Source: Sneathiella limimaris (GTDB lineage Bacteria; Pseudomonadota; Alphaproteobacteria; Sneathiellales; Sneathiellaceae). Taken from it: 64,000 bases of DNA. Shown piece after piece: positions 12,541-59,402 of this stretch. The stretch covers positions 1,612,001-1,676,000 of the forward strand of contig NZ_JABBYJ010000001.1 in NCBI RefSeq assembly GCF_012932565.1, written 5' to 3'. A program made the position numbers and the translations under genes. The stretch's first letter is position 1; every line of letters begins with the position of its first letter. The notes under the pieces were generated by a model that had not been told where the DNA came from, did no database searches, and saw only the letters and a list, made by a program, of their open reading frames with translations.

Positions 12541-12573
12541 GACCTCCGCTTTTTGTTCGGGAAGGAAAATCTC

Positions 12574-13470
12574 ATGGTTCAACAGATTTCACCTCTAGAC
12601 TTCGCGAACGCACCGATCCCGGCCAAGGCCGGGATCGGCCTCAAATTTGACCATATTGCCGAAATTATTGAAACCCGGCCGGATGTCGCCTGGTTTGAAA
12701 TTCATGCGGAAAACTTCATGAGCCGGGGTGGTCCTGCCCTTTGGTCACTGGAGCAGATCCGCCAGTCCTATCCCATCTCCGTGCATGGGGTTGGCATGTC
12801 CCTTGGTGGGGCAGACCCTTTATCCAAAGATCATTTGAAACGCCTTAAGACCCTAGTGGATCGGATCGAGCCAGGTCTGGTCTCCGAACATCTGGCCTGG
12901 TGTGGCCGGGGCGGGGCTTTTTACAATGATCTTCTGGCCCTTCCCATGACAGCGGAAGCCCTCGACGTTGTTTGCGCCCATGTGGGTGAGGTGCAGGATA
13001 CCCTGGGCCGGCAGATCCTGATTGAAAATCCGGCGGCCTACCTTGGGTTTGAAACGACTGACATGAGTGAGCCTGAGTTTTTAAACGCTCTTTGCAAGCG
13101 AAGCGGCTGTGGGCTTCTTTTTGATGTGAACAATGTTTTTGTCAGCTCCTCCAACCTTGAATTTGAAGTGACCGCGTATCTGGACGCCCTTGAGTTTAGC
13201 AACATTCAGGAAGTGCATCTGGCCGGGCATCACGTTCGGGAAGTGAACGGCGAGATTTTGCGGATTGATGATCACGGATCACCCGTCAAACCTGAAGTTT
13301 GGGAACTTTATCTAACAGTTTTGCGGCAAACCGGCGAGCTGCCCAGCCTGATCGAGTGGGACACAAATGTCCCGACCCTTGATGTGTTGGTCGCTGAAGC
13401 CACAAAAGCGCAAGCCTATCTGGACACCCTTTCCCTGCCAGAGGAGCAGTTCCATGCCGCAACAGCCTGA
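12574..13470 (+). CDS. bufB: MNIO-family bufferin-modifying enzyme BufB (DUF692)
   Basis: A 298-residue DUF692 protein, a TIM-barrel multinuclear non-heme iron-dependent oxidase. Metal-site stretches are visible: FEIHAENF, SEHLAWCGRGG, ILIENPAAY, LFDVNNVFVSS, HLAGHHV and IEWDTNVP. With BufC it converts cysteines of BufA. The ATG at 12574 follows ggaagg and is preferred over one 21 bp upstream. It overlaps bufC by 17 bp, so translation is coupled. Confidence 0.95.
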   Translation: MVQQISPLDFANAPIPAKAGIGLKFDHIAEIIETRPDVAWFEIHAENFMSRGGPALWSLEQIRQSYPISVHGVGMSLGGADPLSKDHLKRLKTLVDRIEPGLVSEHLAWCGRGGAFYNDLLALPMTAEALDVVCAHVGEVQDTLGRQILIENPAAYLGFETTDMSEPEFLNALCKRSGCGLLFDVNNVFVSSSNLEFEVTAYLDALEFSNIQEVHLAGHHVREVNGEILRIDDHGSPVKPEVWELYLTVLRQTGELPSLIEWDTNVPTLDVLVAEATKAQAYLDTLSLPEEQFHAATA

Positions 13471-14242
13471 TCAGCAAAGTTTGAAAAGCTTGCAGCACCT
13501 GGTTGGTAATGCGATTGAAGCCTATGAGACGGAACCAGCTGTCACGCATATTCGGCGCGGTAAATTTGCCGGGACTGATCTGCTCGCTATTCACCAGAAC
13601 CATTTTCGAAGCTCATTAAGCGATGCGCTTGGGGCCAATTTTCCAGCGATCCTCGCCCTCATTGGGGAGGATTATTTTCAGCATGTGACCCGCCGCTTTG
13701 TGGAGGCATCGCCGCCTCCCGGTGCGATCCTTGCGGAATATGGCTGCGGCTTTGCAGATCATTTGGCAGAAAATGACGCGCTAAATCCCTTTCCGTATCT
13801 GGCGGATGTTGCGCGCCTTGAGTGGCACTGGAATGAAGCCTTTCATGAGGCGGATGCAGCCTCGTTGAGCGCAGAGGAATTAACCGCGCTCGCCACGAAT
13901 GCCACGGAAGAAGCTCCGCTGGATCTGTTTTTACATCCGACGGTTCGGCTGATCCGCTCTCCCTATCCGCTTGCAAAAATCTGGGAGATGGCCCGCTTTG
14001 GGGCGCTTGATCCCGACGATATTGATCTGGCGCCGGCTGATTATCATTACCTGATTATTCGATCCGGACAGATGCCAGAAGTATTTGCGTTGGATGCGGG
14101 TAGTTTCGCGTTTCTGGAGGCGCTCGCCAAAAGCCCTGATTTTGAGGCGGCTGCAGTCGCTGCGATGGCAGCAGCACCGGATTTTTCATTGGAAGGCTCG
14201 CTCGGCAGCCTGCTTCTCAAAGGGGTGTTTCGGCATCCTTAA
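13454..14242 (+). CDS. bufC: Bufferin partner protein BufC (DUF2063)
   Basis: A 262-residue protein with the DUF2063 (putative DNA-binding) N-terminal domain, recognised by LLAIHQNHFRSSLSDALGANFP and VTRRFVEASPPPGAILAEYG. In this system it serves as the RiPP-recognition partner that presents BufA to BufB rather than as a DNA-binding protein. The start at 13454 has a gaggagcag RBS inside the end of bufB. The upstream extension of the frame overlaps bufB and is not coding. Confidence 0.92.
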   Translation: MPQQPDQQSLKSLQHLVGNAIEAYETEPAVTHIRRGKFAGTDLLAIHQNHFRSSLSDALGANFPAILALIGEDYFQHVTRRFVEASPPPGAILAEYGCGFADHLAENDALNPFPYLADVARLEWHWNEAFHEADAASLSAEELTALATNATEEAPLDLFLHPTVRLIRSPYPLAKIWEMARFGALDPDDIDLAPADYHYLIIRSGQMPEVFALDAGSFAFLEALAKSPDFEAAAVAAMAAAPDFSLEGSLGSLLLKGVFRHP

Positions 14243-14765: not shown

Positions 14766-16085
14766 TCAGCGAATAAAGTGAAGGTCCTTGAACTGGCTTC
14801 GATAGGCTTTAACTTCAGTCGCAAGGCTCTCTGGATCATTTGATGTCAGTGCGGCCGCGATCAATTCTGCAAGGCGGGGTATGTCTTGCTCGGTCATGCC
14901 CCAGCGAACCAGTTCCGGGGTGCCGATCCGAAGCCCGTTCAAGTCTCCCTCCACCGGGGTGGTGGGCAGACCAATCCCGCAAGCCAGAAATCCTGCTTTC
15001 CGAAGATGCTGGGAGGCTGCCTGTCCCCCGCCATAAGGGGCAGCGAGCACCGCAAACTGATGGGACGCGGTCATCACGTTGCCCGATTTGAATATCTGAA
15101 TGCCAAGGGCCTGCAGGTTTTCCGCCAGGGCGCGAGCCGTTCGGACCATGGCGGCGGCATAATCCCGACCATGGACTTTCCAGTCGAGCAGACTAATGGC
15201 AAGGCTTGCGGATTTGGCTGCGTCAAAGTTGGCGGTAAGGCCAGGGAAGGCAATCTGGTCAATCTTTTCGGCAAGGTCCGCCCGGTTGGTGACCAGCAGG
15301 CCACCTGCAGGACCGCCAAGACTTTTATAAGTGCTCATGGTCATCAGATCTGCCCCCTCAGCCAAGGGGTTGGGCCAGGCGCCGCCTGCAATTATTCCGC
15401 ATTGATGAGCCGCATCAAATAAAAGGTCTGCCCCTACTTCATCGGCGATTTTACGGATTTCCGCCACCGGGTGCGGGGTGAGGTTGAGGCTGCCCCCGAT
15501 TGTGATCAGTCGGGGTTTGATTTCCCTCGCCATTTCCTCCAGTTTTGCTGCGTCCACCGTGTAGCCATCGCTCGCCACCGGGGCAGCTTTGATGGTCAGG
15601 CCATAAAGCCCGGCAGCCCCTGCTTCATGGTGGGTGACGTGACCGCCAACGGCAGGGGGCGGGACGATAATAGTGTCGCCCGGCTTGCACGTCGCCATAA
15701 AGGCATAGAGGTTGGCAAGCGCGCCGGAGGCGATGCGGATTTCTGCAAAATCCGCGTCAAAAACCTCAGCGGCCAACTCGGCGGCGATTACCTCAATCTC
15801 TTCAATCGCCTCCAGTCCCATCTCATATTTATCACCGGGATAACCGAGGGACGGGCGGGAGCCAAGACCAGCGGCAAGCGCTGCTTCGGCTTTGGGGTTC
15901 ATCACATTGGTTGCGGGATTGAGGTTAAAGCAGTCGTCTTCGTGGATTTCCTTGTTGCGCGCGATCAGGGCATCAATCCGATCCCCGATGTCGTGAGGGG
16001 CACTTGCCTCTACCGAAGTTGCATAAGCCTGAACCAGATCCTCAGACCCTTCGGGCACCCAGCCCCGCCGCACCAGTTTTGCCAT
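14766..16085 (-). CDS. Serine hydroxymethyltransferase-like PLP enzyme (non-canonical active site)
   Basis: A 439-residue fold-type I PLP enzyme of the GlyA superfamily. The PLP lysine lies in TMSTYKSLGGPAGG (Lys254), with Asp224 in FDAAHQCG and the carboxylate-binding Arg in GLRIGTPELVRWG. The SHMT catalytic Glu (E. coli E57, in YAEGYPG) is Leu80 here (PSLGYPG), and the His before the Lys is Tyr253. Canonical folate-dependent SHMT activity is therefore doubtful; a folate-independent beta-hydroxy amino acid aldolase is a reasonable alternative. It is monocistronic, converging with the bufferin operon. Confidence 0.85.
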   Translation of the reverse strand: MAKLVRRGWVPEGSEDLVQAYATSVEASAPHDIGDRIDALIARNKEIHEDDCFNLNPATNVMNPKAEAALAAGLGSRPSLGYPGDKYEMGLEAIEEIEVIAAELAAEVFDADFAEIRIASGALANLYAFMATCKPGDTIIVPPPAVGGHVTHHEAGAAGLYGLTIKAAPVASDGYTVDAAKLEEMAREIKPRLITIGGSLNLTPHPVAEIRKIADEVGADLLFDAAHQCGIIAGGAWPNPLAEGADLMTMSTYKSLGGPAGGLLVTNRADLAEKIDQIAFPGLTANFDAAKSASLAISLLDWKVHGRDYAAAMVRTARALAENLQALGIQIFKSGNVMTASHQFAVLAAPYGGGQAASQHLRKAGFLACGIGLPTTPVEGDLNGLRIGTPELVRWGMTEQDIPRLAELIAAALTSNDPESLATEVKAYRSQFKDLHFIR

Positions 16086-17093: not shown

Positions 17094-17870
17094 TCAGCCA
17101 AGTCGTCCAAAGAACGTCATGCGGGCAGGCTCTGAAAGGGCGATACCCGGCTCGCTGTTATAGGCAAGGACAACCATCAGCCGGGTTTTTGATCCTTCTG
17201 TCGGGGTGACCCGGTGCAGGGAATTGCGGCCTCGAAAGAGGGACAGTGTTCCTTCCTCGATGGGCAGGGTGCTCACAGCTGTTGTCCCATTCAGGACGGC
17301 CTCGACCCCGTCGAAATTCATCTCCCCGGCATCTGCATCGCGCAAGTCACGGACATATTGAAATTCCCCGCCGCCTTCAGGGGCTTGCAGGAGCAAGGTC
17401 GTGGCAAAAGAGCTGTTATCAAAATGCCAGTTGAGCTCCCGCCCTTCATCGGCGAAATGCACGTTAATTCCGGCAAGCGGATCGGCATAAGGATAGATTG
17501 CTTCTTCGCCCACAACTTCAGCCACAAATTTCTTGAATTCCGGGCTATCATATAAGGCATGAAGGCCGGAGCCTTCGGGCACCTGGTCGGTGGTGATGCA
17601 GCCTTTCGTGGAGCTGAGCTGGCGATTGAAGATATGGTCCTCTGGCAGGTTCGGATCCGGATCGGTCAGGTAAATGTTATGGGTCTGGGCCGTGTAATAG
17701 ACCAGATCACTCTGCGCTTCCGCCTCCCGGATGATTTCTGAGCGGGCCTCGTCTTTTAAAAAACCGGGCAGCAGCAGGGAGCCATCCGCATCCAGTTTCT
17801 CCCGACATGCCTGAATAAAATCGGGCGAGGTGATCGGATAGGCTTCAAGATTGATCCAGCGATCCAGCAT
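17094..17870 (-). CDS. Fe(II)/2-oxoglutarate-dependent oxygenase
   Basis: A 258-residue protein with a jelly-roll iron site: H149 and D151 in LNWHFDNSSF, H219 in NSLHRVTPTEG and the 2-oxoglutarate-binding Arg230 in SKTRLMVV. This HxD..H..R set is complete, so it should be an active hydroxylase or halogenase-type oxygenase. D151 is retained, which argues against a halogenase, since those have Gly or Ala there unless HalD-like. It resembles the ArpA/HalD group of amino-acid and small-molecule oxygenases in overall layout. Monocistronic; substrate unknown. Confidence 0.85.
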   Translation of the reverse strand: MLDRWINLEAYPITSPDFIQACREKLDADGSLLLPGFLKDEARSEIIREAEAQSDLVYYTAQTHNIYLTDPDPNLPEDHIFNRQLSSTKGCITTDQVPEGSGLHALYDSPEFKKFVAEVVGEEAIYPYADPLAGINVHFADEGRELNWHFDNSSFATTLLLQAPEGGGEFQYVRDLRDADAGEMNFDGVEAVLNGTTAVSTLPIEEGTLSLFRGRNSLHRVTPTEGSKTRLMVVLAYNSEPGIALSEPARMTFFGRLG

Positions 17871-22446: not shown

Positions 22447-23700
22447 CTACATCAAGTCTTCCTCAAACGGGAAGAGGCTGAGGAGTTCGGTGCCGGTTTC
22501 GGTGATGAGCAGTTGCTGTTCCAGCTTAACCCCCTCTCTGCCGCCGGTAGCGCCGATATAGCTTTCAACGCAGAGGGTCATGCCCGGCTCAACCACCCCG
22601 TCATAGCCTGCATCGGCAAAATCCCTGTGGTGATAGAGATAGGGGTATTCACCAGTCATGCCGCAGCCATGGGCGGAGAGATAATAGCGGTTGGGCTCAT
22701 ATATCTCCGGGATGTTCCAAGCTTTGTCGGAATATTCCCGAAAGGTGAGGCCGGGCTTCAGAATATCCATATTATGATGGAGCTGTTCAAGCGCAGTTTT
22801 GTAGAGGGTGCGTTGGTCATCGGTTGGTTTGTCCGGGCCGGAATGGAAGGTGCGGGAAAAGTCAGAGTAATACCCGTGACAGCCAACAACATCGGTATCG
22901 AGCAGGATCAGGCAATTTTCCCCGATCACATGGGACGAGCTTTCCTGAAACCACGGATTACTGCGTGGGCCTGAATTGAGGAGCCGGGTTTCACAATAAT
23001 CGCCGTTTCGGGCAATGACCGATTGATGCAGGACGGACCAAAGCTCATTTTCCGTGATGCCAGGGCGAATGGCGGCGCGCATATCTGCAACCGCAGCCTC
23101 GGTTGCGCGTAAAGATGCGATGACGCATTTTATCTCCTCATCAGACTTGATGGAGCGGGCCATCTCAACTGGCTCTTGCGCATCGACAATCTCGAACCCT
23201 TCGGCTTTAAGGGCGATGGCGCTGCCTGCGTTGAGCCGCTCAAGCCCGACACGGGCACCTTTTCCAACGAGGGCGGCGATCAGGTTGCCAATGTCTGCCG
23301 CCCAGGCTTTTTCCCGCGCTTCGATATCCGCACCGGCAGCAACAAAGCTTGCGGTGCTGGAGGGGCGAACTTCATCCACCGTCTCGTACCCTTCAGCCAG
23401 ATGCAGGCAGCCGGTAAATTCAAACAGGATGGATTTATCCGCCGTGAGAAGGAGATACCGGGCCGGGGCGTTGCGCATGGAAAAGACCTGCATATTGCGG
23501 GTCCCGGTGGCGTAGCGAATGTTAATGGGGTCGGAGAGAATGACGGCCCCGATATCGCGTTTGTTCATTTCCGCGCGGACCCGCCCAAGGCGATACAGGC
23601 GAACAGCGGCAAGGTCGATGTCGACACTTTCCGGGGCTAGATCCAGGAGCGCCAGATCCGGGTGTGTGCCCCGATCCGCATGCCAGTCCAGTTTGCTCAT
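22447..23700 (-). CDS. DddP-like M24-family metalloprotein
   Basis: A 417-residue pita-bread (M24, creatinase/prolidase) protein that aligns over its length with the DMSP lyase DddP. All six metal ligands recalled for Roseobacter DddP (D295, D297, D307, H371, E406, E421) have counterparts at a constant offset of 27: D268, D270, D280, H344, E379, E394. The substrate-cavity motif SGPRSNPWFQE is also shared. The catalytic base D377 corresponds to Gly350 (HGCGMTGEYP). It is therefore a DddP relative whose DMSP-cleaving activity is doubtful; peptidase or C-N hydrolase activity is possible. Monocistronic. Confidence 0.85.
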   Translation of the reverse strand: MSKLDWHADRGTHPDLALLDLAPESVDIDLAAVRLYRLGRVRAEMNKRDIGAVILSDPINIRYATGTRNMQVFSMRNAPARYLLLTADKSILFEFTGCLHLAEGYETVDEVRPSSTASFVAAGADIEAREKAWAADIGNLIAALVGKGARVGLERLNAGSAIALKAEGFEIVDAQEPVEMARSIKSDEEIKCVIASLRATEAAVADMRAAIRPGITENELWSVLHQSVIARNGDYCETRLLNSGPRSNPWFQESSSHVIGENCLILLDTDVVGCHGYYSDFSRTFHSGPDKPTDDQRTLYKTALEQLHHNMDILKPGLTFREYSDKAWNIPEIYEPNRYYLSAHGCGMTGEYPYLYHHRDFADAGYDGVVEPGMTLCVESYIGATGGREGVKLEQQLLITETGTELLSLFPFEEDLM

Positions 23701-37690: not shown

Positions 37691-37820
37691 AGCCGTCACC
37701 AAAGTCTGGGAAAGACGTTAGAAACCAGCTTCCCTTTTCCAGACTTCAGGTGTATTGGAATGCCTCCTTAGGAAAAGTGGGTTTCAATGGGAGCTGGCGA
37801 TGGCACAAGGGGAGACGTTT

Positions 37821-39230
37821 ATGGCGAAGAAAAATCAATCTATTGTGGTCGGATGGGACGAATGGGTATCTTTGCCCGAGCTCGGTCTCTATGCGATCAA
37901 AGCCAAGATTGACACCGGCGCGCAAACCTCATCGCTACATGCAATCAACATCGAAGCCTATGAGAAGGGCGGCGTTCAAAGGGTCCGGTATCTTGTGCAT
38001 CCTTTGCCAGAACGGCCTGACGTGGAAATTCAATGTGATTCCCAAGTAGTGGATGTCCGCAATATCATCAGCTCCAACGGGGAATCTGAAGAGCGGTATA
38101 TCGTCAGGACACCTTTTCGAATTGATGGGCAGGAGTGGCCGGTCGAGCTGTCCCTGACCAACCGGGAAGATATGCAATACCGGATGCTGGTAGGGCGTTC
38201 CACCATGTCAGGACGGATTGTCGTGGATCCTGATCAATCCATGCTGTGCGGGGAACTTTCCCCAGCCCTTTATGATGAGATCATTAAAGAGCATACAGGC
38301 GATCAGCGGTTGAAGATGGCGATCCTGAGCCGGGAGCCTGAGAATTATTCTACCCAGCGTCTGGTTGATGCTGCGGTGAGCCGTGGTCATTCCGTGGATG
38401 TGATTAACACAACTCGCTGCTATATGAACATCACGTCCGATAAGCCGGACATTCATTATCAGGGGGTTTCCCTGCCTGCCTATGATGCGATTATTCCGCG
38501 CGTCGGTGCCTCCATTACCTTCTACGGTATGGCCATTGTTCGTCAGTTTGAGATGATGGGGACCTATTCACTGAATAATGCAGAAGCAATTGGTCAATCC
38601 CGAGACAAACTGTTTGCGCATCAGTTACTGGCGCGTGAAGGCATTGGTATGCCGGTAACCGGTTTCGCGCATTCCCCATCAGATATTCGCGACATGCTGA
38701 AATCTGTCGGTAAGGCGCCTTTGGTGCTGAAGCTGCTGGAAGGAACACAAGGGCGCGGTGTGGTGCTTGCGGAAACCCAGAAAGCGGCCGAGTCTGTTAT
38801 TCAGGCGTTTAGGGGCTTGAAAGCCAATATTCTGGTGCAGGAGTTTATTGCCGAAAGTAAAGGCGCGGATGTCCGCTGTGTCGTGATTGGCAATAAGGTG
38901 GTTGCCGCCATGAAACGGCAAGCTGAGGAAGGGGAGTTTCGCTCCAACCTGCATCAGGGCGGAACAGCGTCCAAAGTGAAAATCAGTCCTGCAGAACGGG
39001 CCGCAGCGGTCCGGGCCGCAAAAGCATTGGGGCTTCGGTTTGCTGGTGTGGATCTCTTGCGCTCCAACGATGGGCCAAAGGTGTTGGAGGTCAATTCCTC
39101 GCCCGGGCTTGAGGGCGTTGAGAACGTGACCGGTCTTAATATTGCCAGTCAGGTGATCGAATATATTGAGCAGGGTGTCAAGCGGCGGAAAGCAGCCGCC
39201 CCCCGACGAAAAGCGGCGAAGAAAGCCTAA
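37821..39230 (+). CDS. rimK: RimB-like retropepsin domain fused to RimK ATP-grasp ligase
   Basis: A 469-residue fusion. Residues 1 to about 150 form the RimB/ATP-dependent zinc protease domain (PF05618), with the aspartic protease motif [12 protein letters not shown] (Asp31). Residues of about 160-460 form Rim[47 protein letters not shown], and the Mg-binding [17 protein letters not shown]. RimK adds glutamates to the C-terminus of ribosomal protein S6, and RimB trims or counterbalances this in systems where they are separate. A Lys/Arg/Ala-rich tail ends the protein. ATG at 37821 follows ggggaga; an ATG at 37800 is also possible. Confidence 0.9.
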
Positions 39231-57463: not shown

Positions 57464-57779
57464 TCTTCTTCTCCTTCACATGACCCGTGTGTGGGTTTAT
57501 TCGGTTATATATAAGTTCTGTTTTGGAACCTACAAAAAAATCTAGGATTTGTGACATAGCAGACACAGCCAACTCTAATCCAGTCTCAGCGCGCTGCTCA
57601 GAGGTACTTGCGGAATTTATTTATTAGGAAATGGCGAAATTTGAACAGGAAGAGGCTGCTGTCTGGTTTTTTGACCACCGTAAAAAGGCTTAGGCTGTTA
57701 AGGTCGGGTGAGTTTTCTTAAGCCCAGTGACGCATCCCGTTGGGGCTGTGGAACTGTCAACATTAGGGAGGGTGATGAC
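57464..57779. other. Divergent promoter region between thiolase and BCCT genes
   Basis: About 316 bp, moderately AT-rich, no gene. No clear operator palindrome or regulator gene is present, so control of either gene is unknown. An in-frame extension of the BCCT gene into 57708-57779 is not needed. Confidence 0.4.
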
Positions 57780-59402
57780 ATGACAGATATCAACGATACC
57801 CATCTGAATCCAATCGATACTGATCATGAAATAGGACAACATAATGTTTCCCCATTTGGGTTAGATATTCATAATCCTGTTTTCTTGATTTCAGGCATCG
57901 CGATTGTTGCGTTTGTTCTGATCACATTAATGTTTCAGGCTGAGGCTACTGAGTTTTTTGGTTGGCTACGGCCTTTTCTCACGTCCAAGTTTGATTGGTT
58001 TTTCCTGAGTGCAGCAAATATATTTGTGCTGTTTTGCCTATACCTTTTGGTCTCGCCGCTTGGGAAAATTCGATTGGGCGGAATGGAGGCTGAGCCGGAT
58101 TACAGTTACATAAGCTGGTTCGCGATGCTGTTCGCCGCTGGTATGGGTATTGGCCTGATGTTCTTTGGCGTGTCAGAACCGATGTCTCATTTTGCGTCCT
58201 CCATGGGAGGGACAGCGGTAGAAAATGGGGTTCGAACAGACTGGGCTCCTCTTGGTGCTGCTGCTGGTGATCATGATGCAGCGCTTGGCCTTGGAATGGC
58301 AGCTACGATTTTTCATTGGGCCATTCATCCTTGGGCCATTTATGCTGTTGTCGCTCTGGCTCTCGCTTTCTTCTCATTTAACAGTCATCTACCCTTAACA
58401 CTGCGCTCAGCATTCTATCCCCTATTTGGCGAACGGGTATGGGGCTGGACTGGTCACATCATTGATACGCTTGCGGTATTCGCAACGTTATTTGGGCTGG
58501 CAACGTCTTTGGGTTTTGGAACAGAGCAGGCTTTGGCTGGCTTAAACTTCCTATTTGGCTGGAGCACGGGCAACCTGGCCAAGGTCCTGTTGATTTCGTT
58601 CATTACAATCCTGGCATTGATATCCGTTCTGCGCGGTCTTGATGGCGGCGTTAAAATCCTCTCTGAGGTTAACATAGCGCTAGCGGGCCTGTTGTTGATC
58701 TTTGTGCTCTTCGTCGGACCAACAGGCGAAATCTTCACGACCATGTTTGAAGGGAGCCTTGCCTATCTGAAAGACGTTGTTCCGCTGTCCATGCCATTCG
58801 GCCGGGAAGATAACAACTTTACGCAAGGCTGGACTTCCTTTTACTGGGCTTGGTGGATTTCCTGGTCACCATTTGTCGGAATGTTCATCGCTCGTGTTTC
58901 AAGAGGGCGTACAGTTCGGGAGTTTGTCTTCTGTGTGATTATCATTCCAACACTTGTAACCGTCGTTTGGATGAGCGTTTTTGGTGGGACAGCTATTTCG
59001 CAGGTATTTGCTGATGCAACAGCCCCAGTTAAAGATGCTGCACTTGAGCTCAAACTCTTTGTCATGCTGGAACCTCTTCCGTTGGCAGCCATTACATCAT
59101 TCCTGGGAATTATTCTGGTGCTGGTGTTCTTTGTCACCTCATCCGATTCCGGCTCGCTGGTGATTGATACCATCACAGCAGGTGGAAAGGTGGATGCCCC
59201 AGTAGCGCAACGGGTTTTCTGGTGTTCCTTTGAGGGGATCGTTGCAGCAACCCTGTTGCTGGTTGGTGGTGCCAGTGCCCTGACGGCACTGCAGGCCATG
59301 GCCGTTTCCACCGGTTTCCCGTTTGCCATCGTGCTGCTGTTGATGTGTGTCAGTTTATATCTGGGACTTAGCCGAGTACATAAACAGACGAAAGAAGGAT
59401 AA
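57780..59402 (+). CDS. BCCT-family transporter (betaine/choline/carnitine type)
   Basis: A 540-residue inner-membrane carrier with 12 helices. The BCCT hallmark in helix 8 reads FTQGWTSFYWAWWISWSPFVG, with FIARVSRGRTVREF following. The family takes up quaternary ammonium or sulfonium compounds such as glycine betaine, choline or DMSP with Na+ or H+. The ATG at 57780 has a strong agggagggtg RBS. The C-terminus is short, without the regulatory tail of BetP, suggesting nutrient uptake rather than osmosensing. A strong terminator follows. Confidence 0.92.
   Translation: MTDINDTHLNPIDTDHEIGQHNVSPFGLDIHNPVFLISGIAIVAFVLITLMFQAEATEFFGWLRPFLTSKFDWFFLSAANIFVLFCLYLLVSPLGKIRLGGMEAEPDYSYISWFAMLFAAGMGIGLMFFGVSEPMSHFASSMGGTAVENGVRTDWAPLGAAAGDHDAALGLGMAATIFHWAIHPWAIYAVVALALAFFSFNSHLPLTLRSAFYPLFGERVWGWTGHIIDTLAVFATLFGLATSLGFGTEQALAGLNFLFGWSTGNLAKVLLISFITILALISVLRGLDGGVKILSEVNIALAGLLLIFVLFVGPTGEIFTTMFEGSLAYLKDVVPLSMPFGREDNNFTQGWTSFYWAWWISWSPFVGMFIARVSRGRTVREFVFCVIIIPTLVTVVWMSVFGGTAISQVFADATAPVKDAALELKLFVMLEPLPLAAITSFLGIILVLVFFVTSSDSGSLVIDTITAGGKVDAPVAQRVFWCSFEGIVAATLLLVGGASALTALQAMAVSTGFPFAIVLLLMCVSLYLGLSRVHKQTKEG

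Follow-up and report, generated by a model that had tools for sequence, protein, structure and literature searches.

A DddP-like M24 protein of Sneathiella limimaris with glycine in place of the catalytic aspartate belongs to a conserved clade that is very probably not DddP and may act on betaine-type compounds

The window, a stretch of 64,000 nucleotides of the Sneathiella limimaris genome, contains an M24-family gene (22447..23700, minus strand) that is preceded by a MATE transporter gene 153 bp away. Its ATG lies at 23700, the open reading frame was confirmed as real, and the product is a DddP-like protein of 417 amino acids (M24 protein), which profile matches, structure-database matches, and a tree assign to a clade with glycine at position 350 (Gly350 clade). 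With the Pfam model PF00557 (Peptidase family M24) it scored 110 bits, well above the gathering score of 23. Among solved structures, the top matches are those of DddP, 4b28 (E 8e-72), 4s01, 4rzy, and 4s00 (to 5e-68); Xaa-Pro peptidases are far weaker matches. Identity to crystallised DddP is 32-35%, with the full length aligned. The AlphaFold model of the M24 protein (mean pLDDT 84) superposes on DddP over 404 residues with Z 43 and an rmsd of 2.2 A, compared to Z ~33 for peptidases. The initial annotation had described a 417-residue M24 protein that follows DddP throughout, and both the alignment and the superposition of the model agree with this description.

Several other genes of the window were also noted. 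An MbnB/TglH/ChrH enzyme (MNIO, DUF692) is encoded at 12553-13470 and is followed by a DUF2063 protein at 13367-14242, both on the plus strand, and such an MNIO and DUF2063 pair (12553-14242) is typical of modified-peptide clusters. The gene at 14766-16085 (minus strand) specifies a PLP enzyme resembling SHMT, which scored 280 bits with the SHMT model (cut-off 335) and 174 bits with that of fluorothreonine transaldolase. At 17094-17870, also on the minus strand, lies the gene of a hydroxylase-like oxygenase of the HalD/BesD superfamily with an HxD motif. Homologues of this HalD-like protein (at the loci L196, L142, L191, L173, L174, L151, and L195) occur mostly in sister groups of the Gly350 clade. 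Finally, the gene at 37755-39230 (plus strand) encodes a fusion of a complete RimK ATP-grasp ligase and a domain that is putatively an ATP-dependent zinc protease.

The metal site of DddP is retained in the M24 protein. Codon coordinates were obtained by arithmetic from the ATG, and all codons given here lie on the minus strand. In the alignment, the metal ligands are Asp268 (DddP D295; 22897..22899), Asp270 (D297; 22891..22893), Asp280 (D307; 22861..22863), His344 (H371; 22669..22671), Glu379 (E406; 22564..22566), and Glu394 (E421; 22519..22521). Asp270 is a sixth ligand that is absent in M24 peptidases. In addition, DddP Y366 corresponds to Tyr339 (22684..22686), and all seven residues are kept at the constant offset of 27 that the initial annotation had listed. 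The DddP motif HGVGLCDEWP aligns with HGCGMTGEYP in the M24 protein. The chain of 4s01 is a D377N mutant and reads HGVGLCNEWP, which fixes the Asp377 column at Gly350 (22651..22653), also the column of a peptidase His; the alignment places no other Asp there. The metal site of DddP binds the carboxylate, and abstraction of the alpha proton is attributed to Asp377 (PMC4108388, PMC5395565). Since the Asp base is missing from a protein that keeps the scaffold and the metal site, the DddP-type DMSP lyase chemistry is probably lost or changed, and this is the strength at which the earlier claim of lost or changed chemistry can be upheld.

The M24 protein is very probably a separate functional line and not DddP. 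It scored 316.8 bits with the NCBIfam DddP model NF043017, for which the cut-off is 600. Some congeners carry true DddP (692-703 bits), and a pair of species, G294 and G307, have true DddP as well as an orthologue of the M24 protein. A tree was built from 92 family proteins, 29 with Gly350, 58 with Asp350, and five with Asn or Val at this position. One clade (27 rows, 99% SH-aLRT) unites the Gly350 sequences of the type found in the window, and DddP falls in a different one; the two remaining Gly350 proteins, L178 and L019, are not part of the 27-row clade. Alignment with DddP and a tree of the surrounding M24 proteins had been recommended in the initial annotation, and the outcome is a clade set apart from DddP. 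When peptidase outgroups were added, the Gly350 clade was kept, but the rooting did not settle the base of the tree, and either Asp or Gly may have come first at position 350.

Family comparison revealed that residue 350 covaries with two other positions. Tyr278 (22867..22869; Cys in DddP) stands two residues before Asp280, and Arg76 (23473..23475; His in DddP), in the N-terminal domain, is the third member of the coupled set. All 29 Gly350 proteins among the 92 sequences have Arg76 together with Tyr (26) or Phe (3) at 278, and neither Tyr/Phe278 nor Arg76 is found in 57 of the 63 proteins that lack Gly350. Asp350 proteins mostly have His at 76, and 48 of the 58 have Cys278, as in DddP. Two of the five Asn350/Val350 proteins have Asp278 and one has Glu278; with an acid at 278 in three of five, positions 350 and 278 are probably both part of the active site. 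The combination of Asn or Val at the Asp377 position with Asp or Glu at 278, seen in L184_018, L186_043, and L193_021, looks like a move of the active-site acid. The pattern is suggestive of an acid or an aromatic ring tending to arise at 278 when the carboxylate at 350 is lost, with at most three independent changes of residue 350 on the tree, where an independent-pairs test of the 350/278 coupling was not significant. In the AlphaFold model, strand 278-286 holds both position 278 and the ligand Asp280. Because the two residues are two apart in one strand, Tyr278 is probably on the same face as Asp280, as judged from strand alternation.

In 84,980 species genomes of bacteria and archaea, a scan returned 80 loci (~69 to 77% identity), including ones from Roseovarius, Roseibium, Sinorhizobium, Burkholderia, Caballeronia, Pseudomonas, Marinobacterium, Halomonas, Streptomyces, and Acidimicrobiales. 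The orthologues span alpha-, beta-, and gammaproteobacteria as well as Streptomyces and Acidimicrobiales. Gly350 and all six ligands are present in 90 of 90 orthologues (the 80 scan loci plus further genomes), and the ligands are complete in 90 of the 92 family members. Gly350 is therefore neither chance nor a sequencing oddity; the change is old, and its conservation across phyla argues for a working enzyme. Within the genus the gene is patchy, with 5 of the 26 Sneathiellaceae genomes searched carrying it. The literature searched, on M24 proteins together with betaine, BCCT, carnitine, or trimethylamine methyltransferase, contained no description of the Gly350 clade.

The gene neighbourhoods of relatives point to betaine-type compounds. 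Neighbour families were named by profile search and comprise BCCT, OpuAC/choline-binding, choline dehydrogenase-like, trimethylamine methyltransferase-like, dimethylglycine dehydrogenase-like, and GbdR-like proteins. For 46 of the 89 orthologue loci, the distance to a LysR gene is at most 1 kb and nearly always at most 250 bp, and this gene is mostly divergent. In the same 89 loci, all seven BCCT transporter matches fall within 1.2 kb, and nine of the 12 matches to OpuAC-type binding proteins lie on the strand of the M24 gene, at most 1.3 kb away. Pooled, 16 of these 19 lie within 3 kb, the flanks extending to at most 9 kb (binomial p ~7e-6, uncorrected for shared ancestry). The M24 gene is upstream of a betaine-type transporter gene in ~15 of the 89 loci, which represent few independent lineages. 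Sister groups adjoin GbdR-like, MttB-like, and betaine ABC genes, for example in Caballeronia and on Sinorhizobium meliloti pSymA. An expanded array was observed at locus L186 (G086:C7:628500-648400), with five DddP-like M24 genes in 20 kb together with MttB-like, LysR, and aldehyde dehydrogenase-like genes. At L051, from a member of the same genus (G296), a gene ~1.5 kb downstream of the M24 gene resembles gamma-butyrobetaine dioxygenase at its N-terminus, as judged by eye.

In the window itself, no LysR, BCCT, or OpuAC neighbour stands beside the M24 gene, and the betaine context is thus borrowed from relatives. Two candidate partners were rejected. The best match to a LysR partner elsewhere in the genome reached only 32%, and many species of the genus that have no M24 gene nevertheless possess the BCCT gene (57708-59402 in the window), which therefore does not qualify as a dedicated partner.

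On balance, we read the M24 protein as an enzyme for an imported betaine-like compound that works without the Asp base, and we consider a betaine-type substrate class reasonably probable. The substrate would be a carboxylate-bearing betaine-type compound (a quaternary ammonium or sulfonium zwitterion), imported in other bacteria via transporters encoded by adjacent genes. The six-ligand, two-metal site would grip the substrate carboxylate as in DddP, and the place of the lost Asp base would be filled by Tyr278, on the strand of the ligand Asp280. A metal-bound hydroxide or Tyr278/Tyr339 would then bring about bond cleavage, with C-N likelier than C-S. That Tyr278 or a metal hydroxide stands in for Asp is a tentative proposal. 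It is likewise conceivable, though doubtful, that the clade is a new M24 enzyme class, widespread in sea and soil, which cleaves a quaternary ammonium zwitterion via Tyr278 or a metal-bound hydroxide and whose gene is switched on, along with that of its own transporter, by a dedicated LysR.

The close likeness to DddP raises another scenario, in which the M24 protein is still a lyase of DMSP (or of a related sulfonium compound) and tyrosine is the new base. The fold and the six ligands are the same as in DddP and Tyr366 is kept. Moreover, a tyrosine base has been proposed for DddQ and was an alternative for DddP (PMC4108388, PMC5395565). BCCT transporters carry DMSP in some bacteria, and DddT structures are among the matches recorded when the neighbour families were named. 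However, the DddP family cut-off is missed by almost half, true DddP is kept beside the orthologue in two species, and the clade is found in the soil genera Burkholderia, Caballeronia, Streptomyces, and Sinorhizobium, which makes such a lyase unlikely.

It is improbable that the M24 protein is an Xaa-Pro-type or aminopeptidase P-type peptidase, despite its M24 fold and the name "Xaa-Pro peptidase family protein" that plasmid records give to relatives. Xaa-Pro peptidases (M24B) are recognized by two substrate-binding histidines. In the alignment, the Xaa-Pro dipeptidase has one His in the Phe251 column and one in the Gly350 column; the M24 protein replaces both and has the sixth ligand, and betaine transporter genes adjoin its relatives. 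According to a review, DddP has Asp and Phe in place of these two histidines (PMC5395565), and DddP, sharing their loss, was inactive on Val-Pro (PMC5395565). The missing histidines and the presence of Asp270 also speak against a peptidase-like ancestor form, which the initial annotation had offered as one explanation. Its other suggestion, Glu351 as a substitute base, fails as well, because all 92 family members have Glu here, including DddP (Glu378), and it cannot mark the Gly350 variant. Its interpretation thus stands for the scaffold, the metal site, and the lost Asp base; it had missed the fixation of Gly350 in a widespread clade, the changes at 278 and 76, and the betaine-type transporter genes beside relatives.

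A two-step route with the HalD-like hydroxylase, whose gene lies 4.6 kb off in the window, is improbable. All seven HalD-like matches in 154 loci are within 477 bp of a DddP-like gene, but no close M24 orthologue in these loci has a HalD-like gene nearby. In Sneathiellaceae, 19 of 26 genomes carry a HalD-like gene whatever their M24 content, and this gene was rejected as a partner in the window. The link may therefore hold for sister groups and not for the M24 gene here. Loss of catalysis, with a role as a sensor or partner protein, would fit the missing catalytic residue presumed for DddP but is very improbable, since pseudoenzymes usually lose ligands, whereas the six ligands are invariant here (90/90 orthologues, 90/92 family members), and since the M24 gene leads a transporter gene set in some loci.

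If the clade is a new enzyme class, DddP would itself belong to a broader family dealing with betaine-type compounds. If the betaine reading is true, the clade would mark an unknown breakdown step of common osmolytes in the sea and in soil. Ocean surveys count DddP genes to judge DMS release. Gly350-type sequences match DddP structures at E ~1e-70 and may be miscounted as DddP despite the missing Asp base. In addition, the position pair 350/278 offers a naturally occurring test case for changes of chemistry at an M24 site.

Among known systems, DddP (Roseobacter denitrificans 4b28, Ruegeria lacuscaerulensis 4rzy) is alike in its whole-length fold, six ligands, Tyr366, Glu378, and the Phe that replaces one peptidase His. 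The M24 protein differs in having Gly for Asp377, Tyr for Cys305, and Arg76 for a His of the N-terminal domain, and also in reaching about half of the family cut-off score and belonging to another clade. Xaa-Pro dipeptidases and aminopeptidase P (M24B) have the pita-bread fold and five metal ligands in common with the M24 protein, which lacks both of their substrate-binding histidines and has the extra ligand Asp270. DoeA/EutD and creatinase share the M24 fold and act on small osmolyte-type substrates, but their sequence match to the M24 protein is weak: the ectoine hydrolase DoeA models gave 56.2 bits against a required 575 (NF038259) and 37.5 against 613 (TIGR02993), and creatinase gave E ~1e-6. 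The M24 protein of Sinorhizobium meliloti pSymA (CP140933, 45% identical) has Gly350, Tyr278, and Arg76 and belongs to the same larger clade; unlike the gene in the window, it is set among MttB-like, GbdR-like, isochorismatase-family, and betaine ABC genes.
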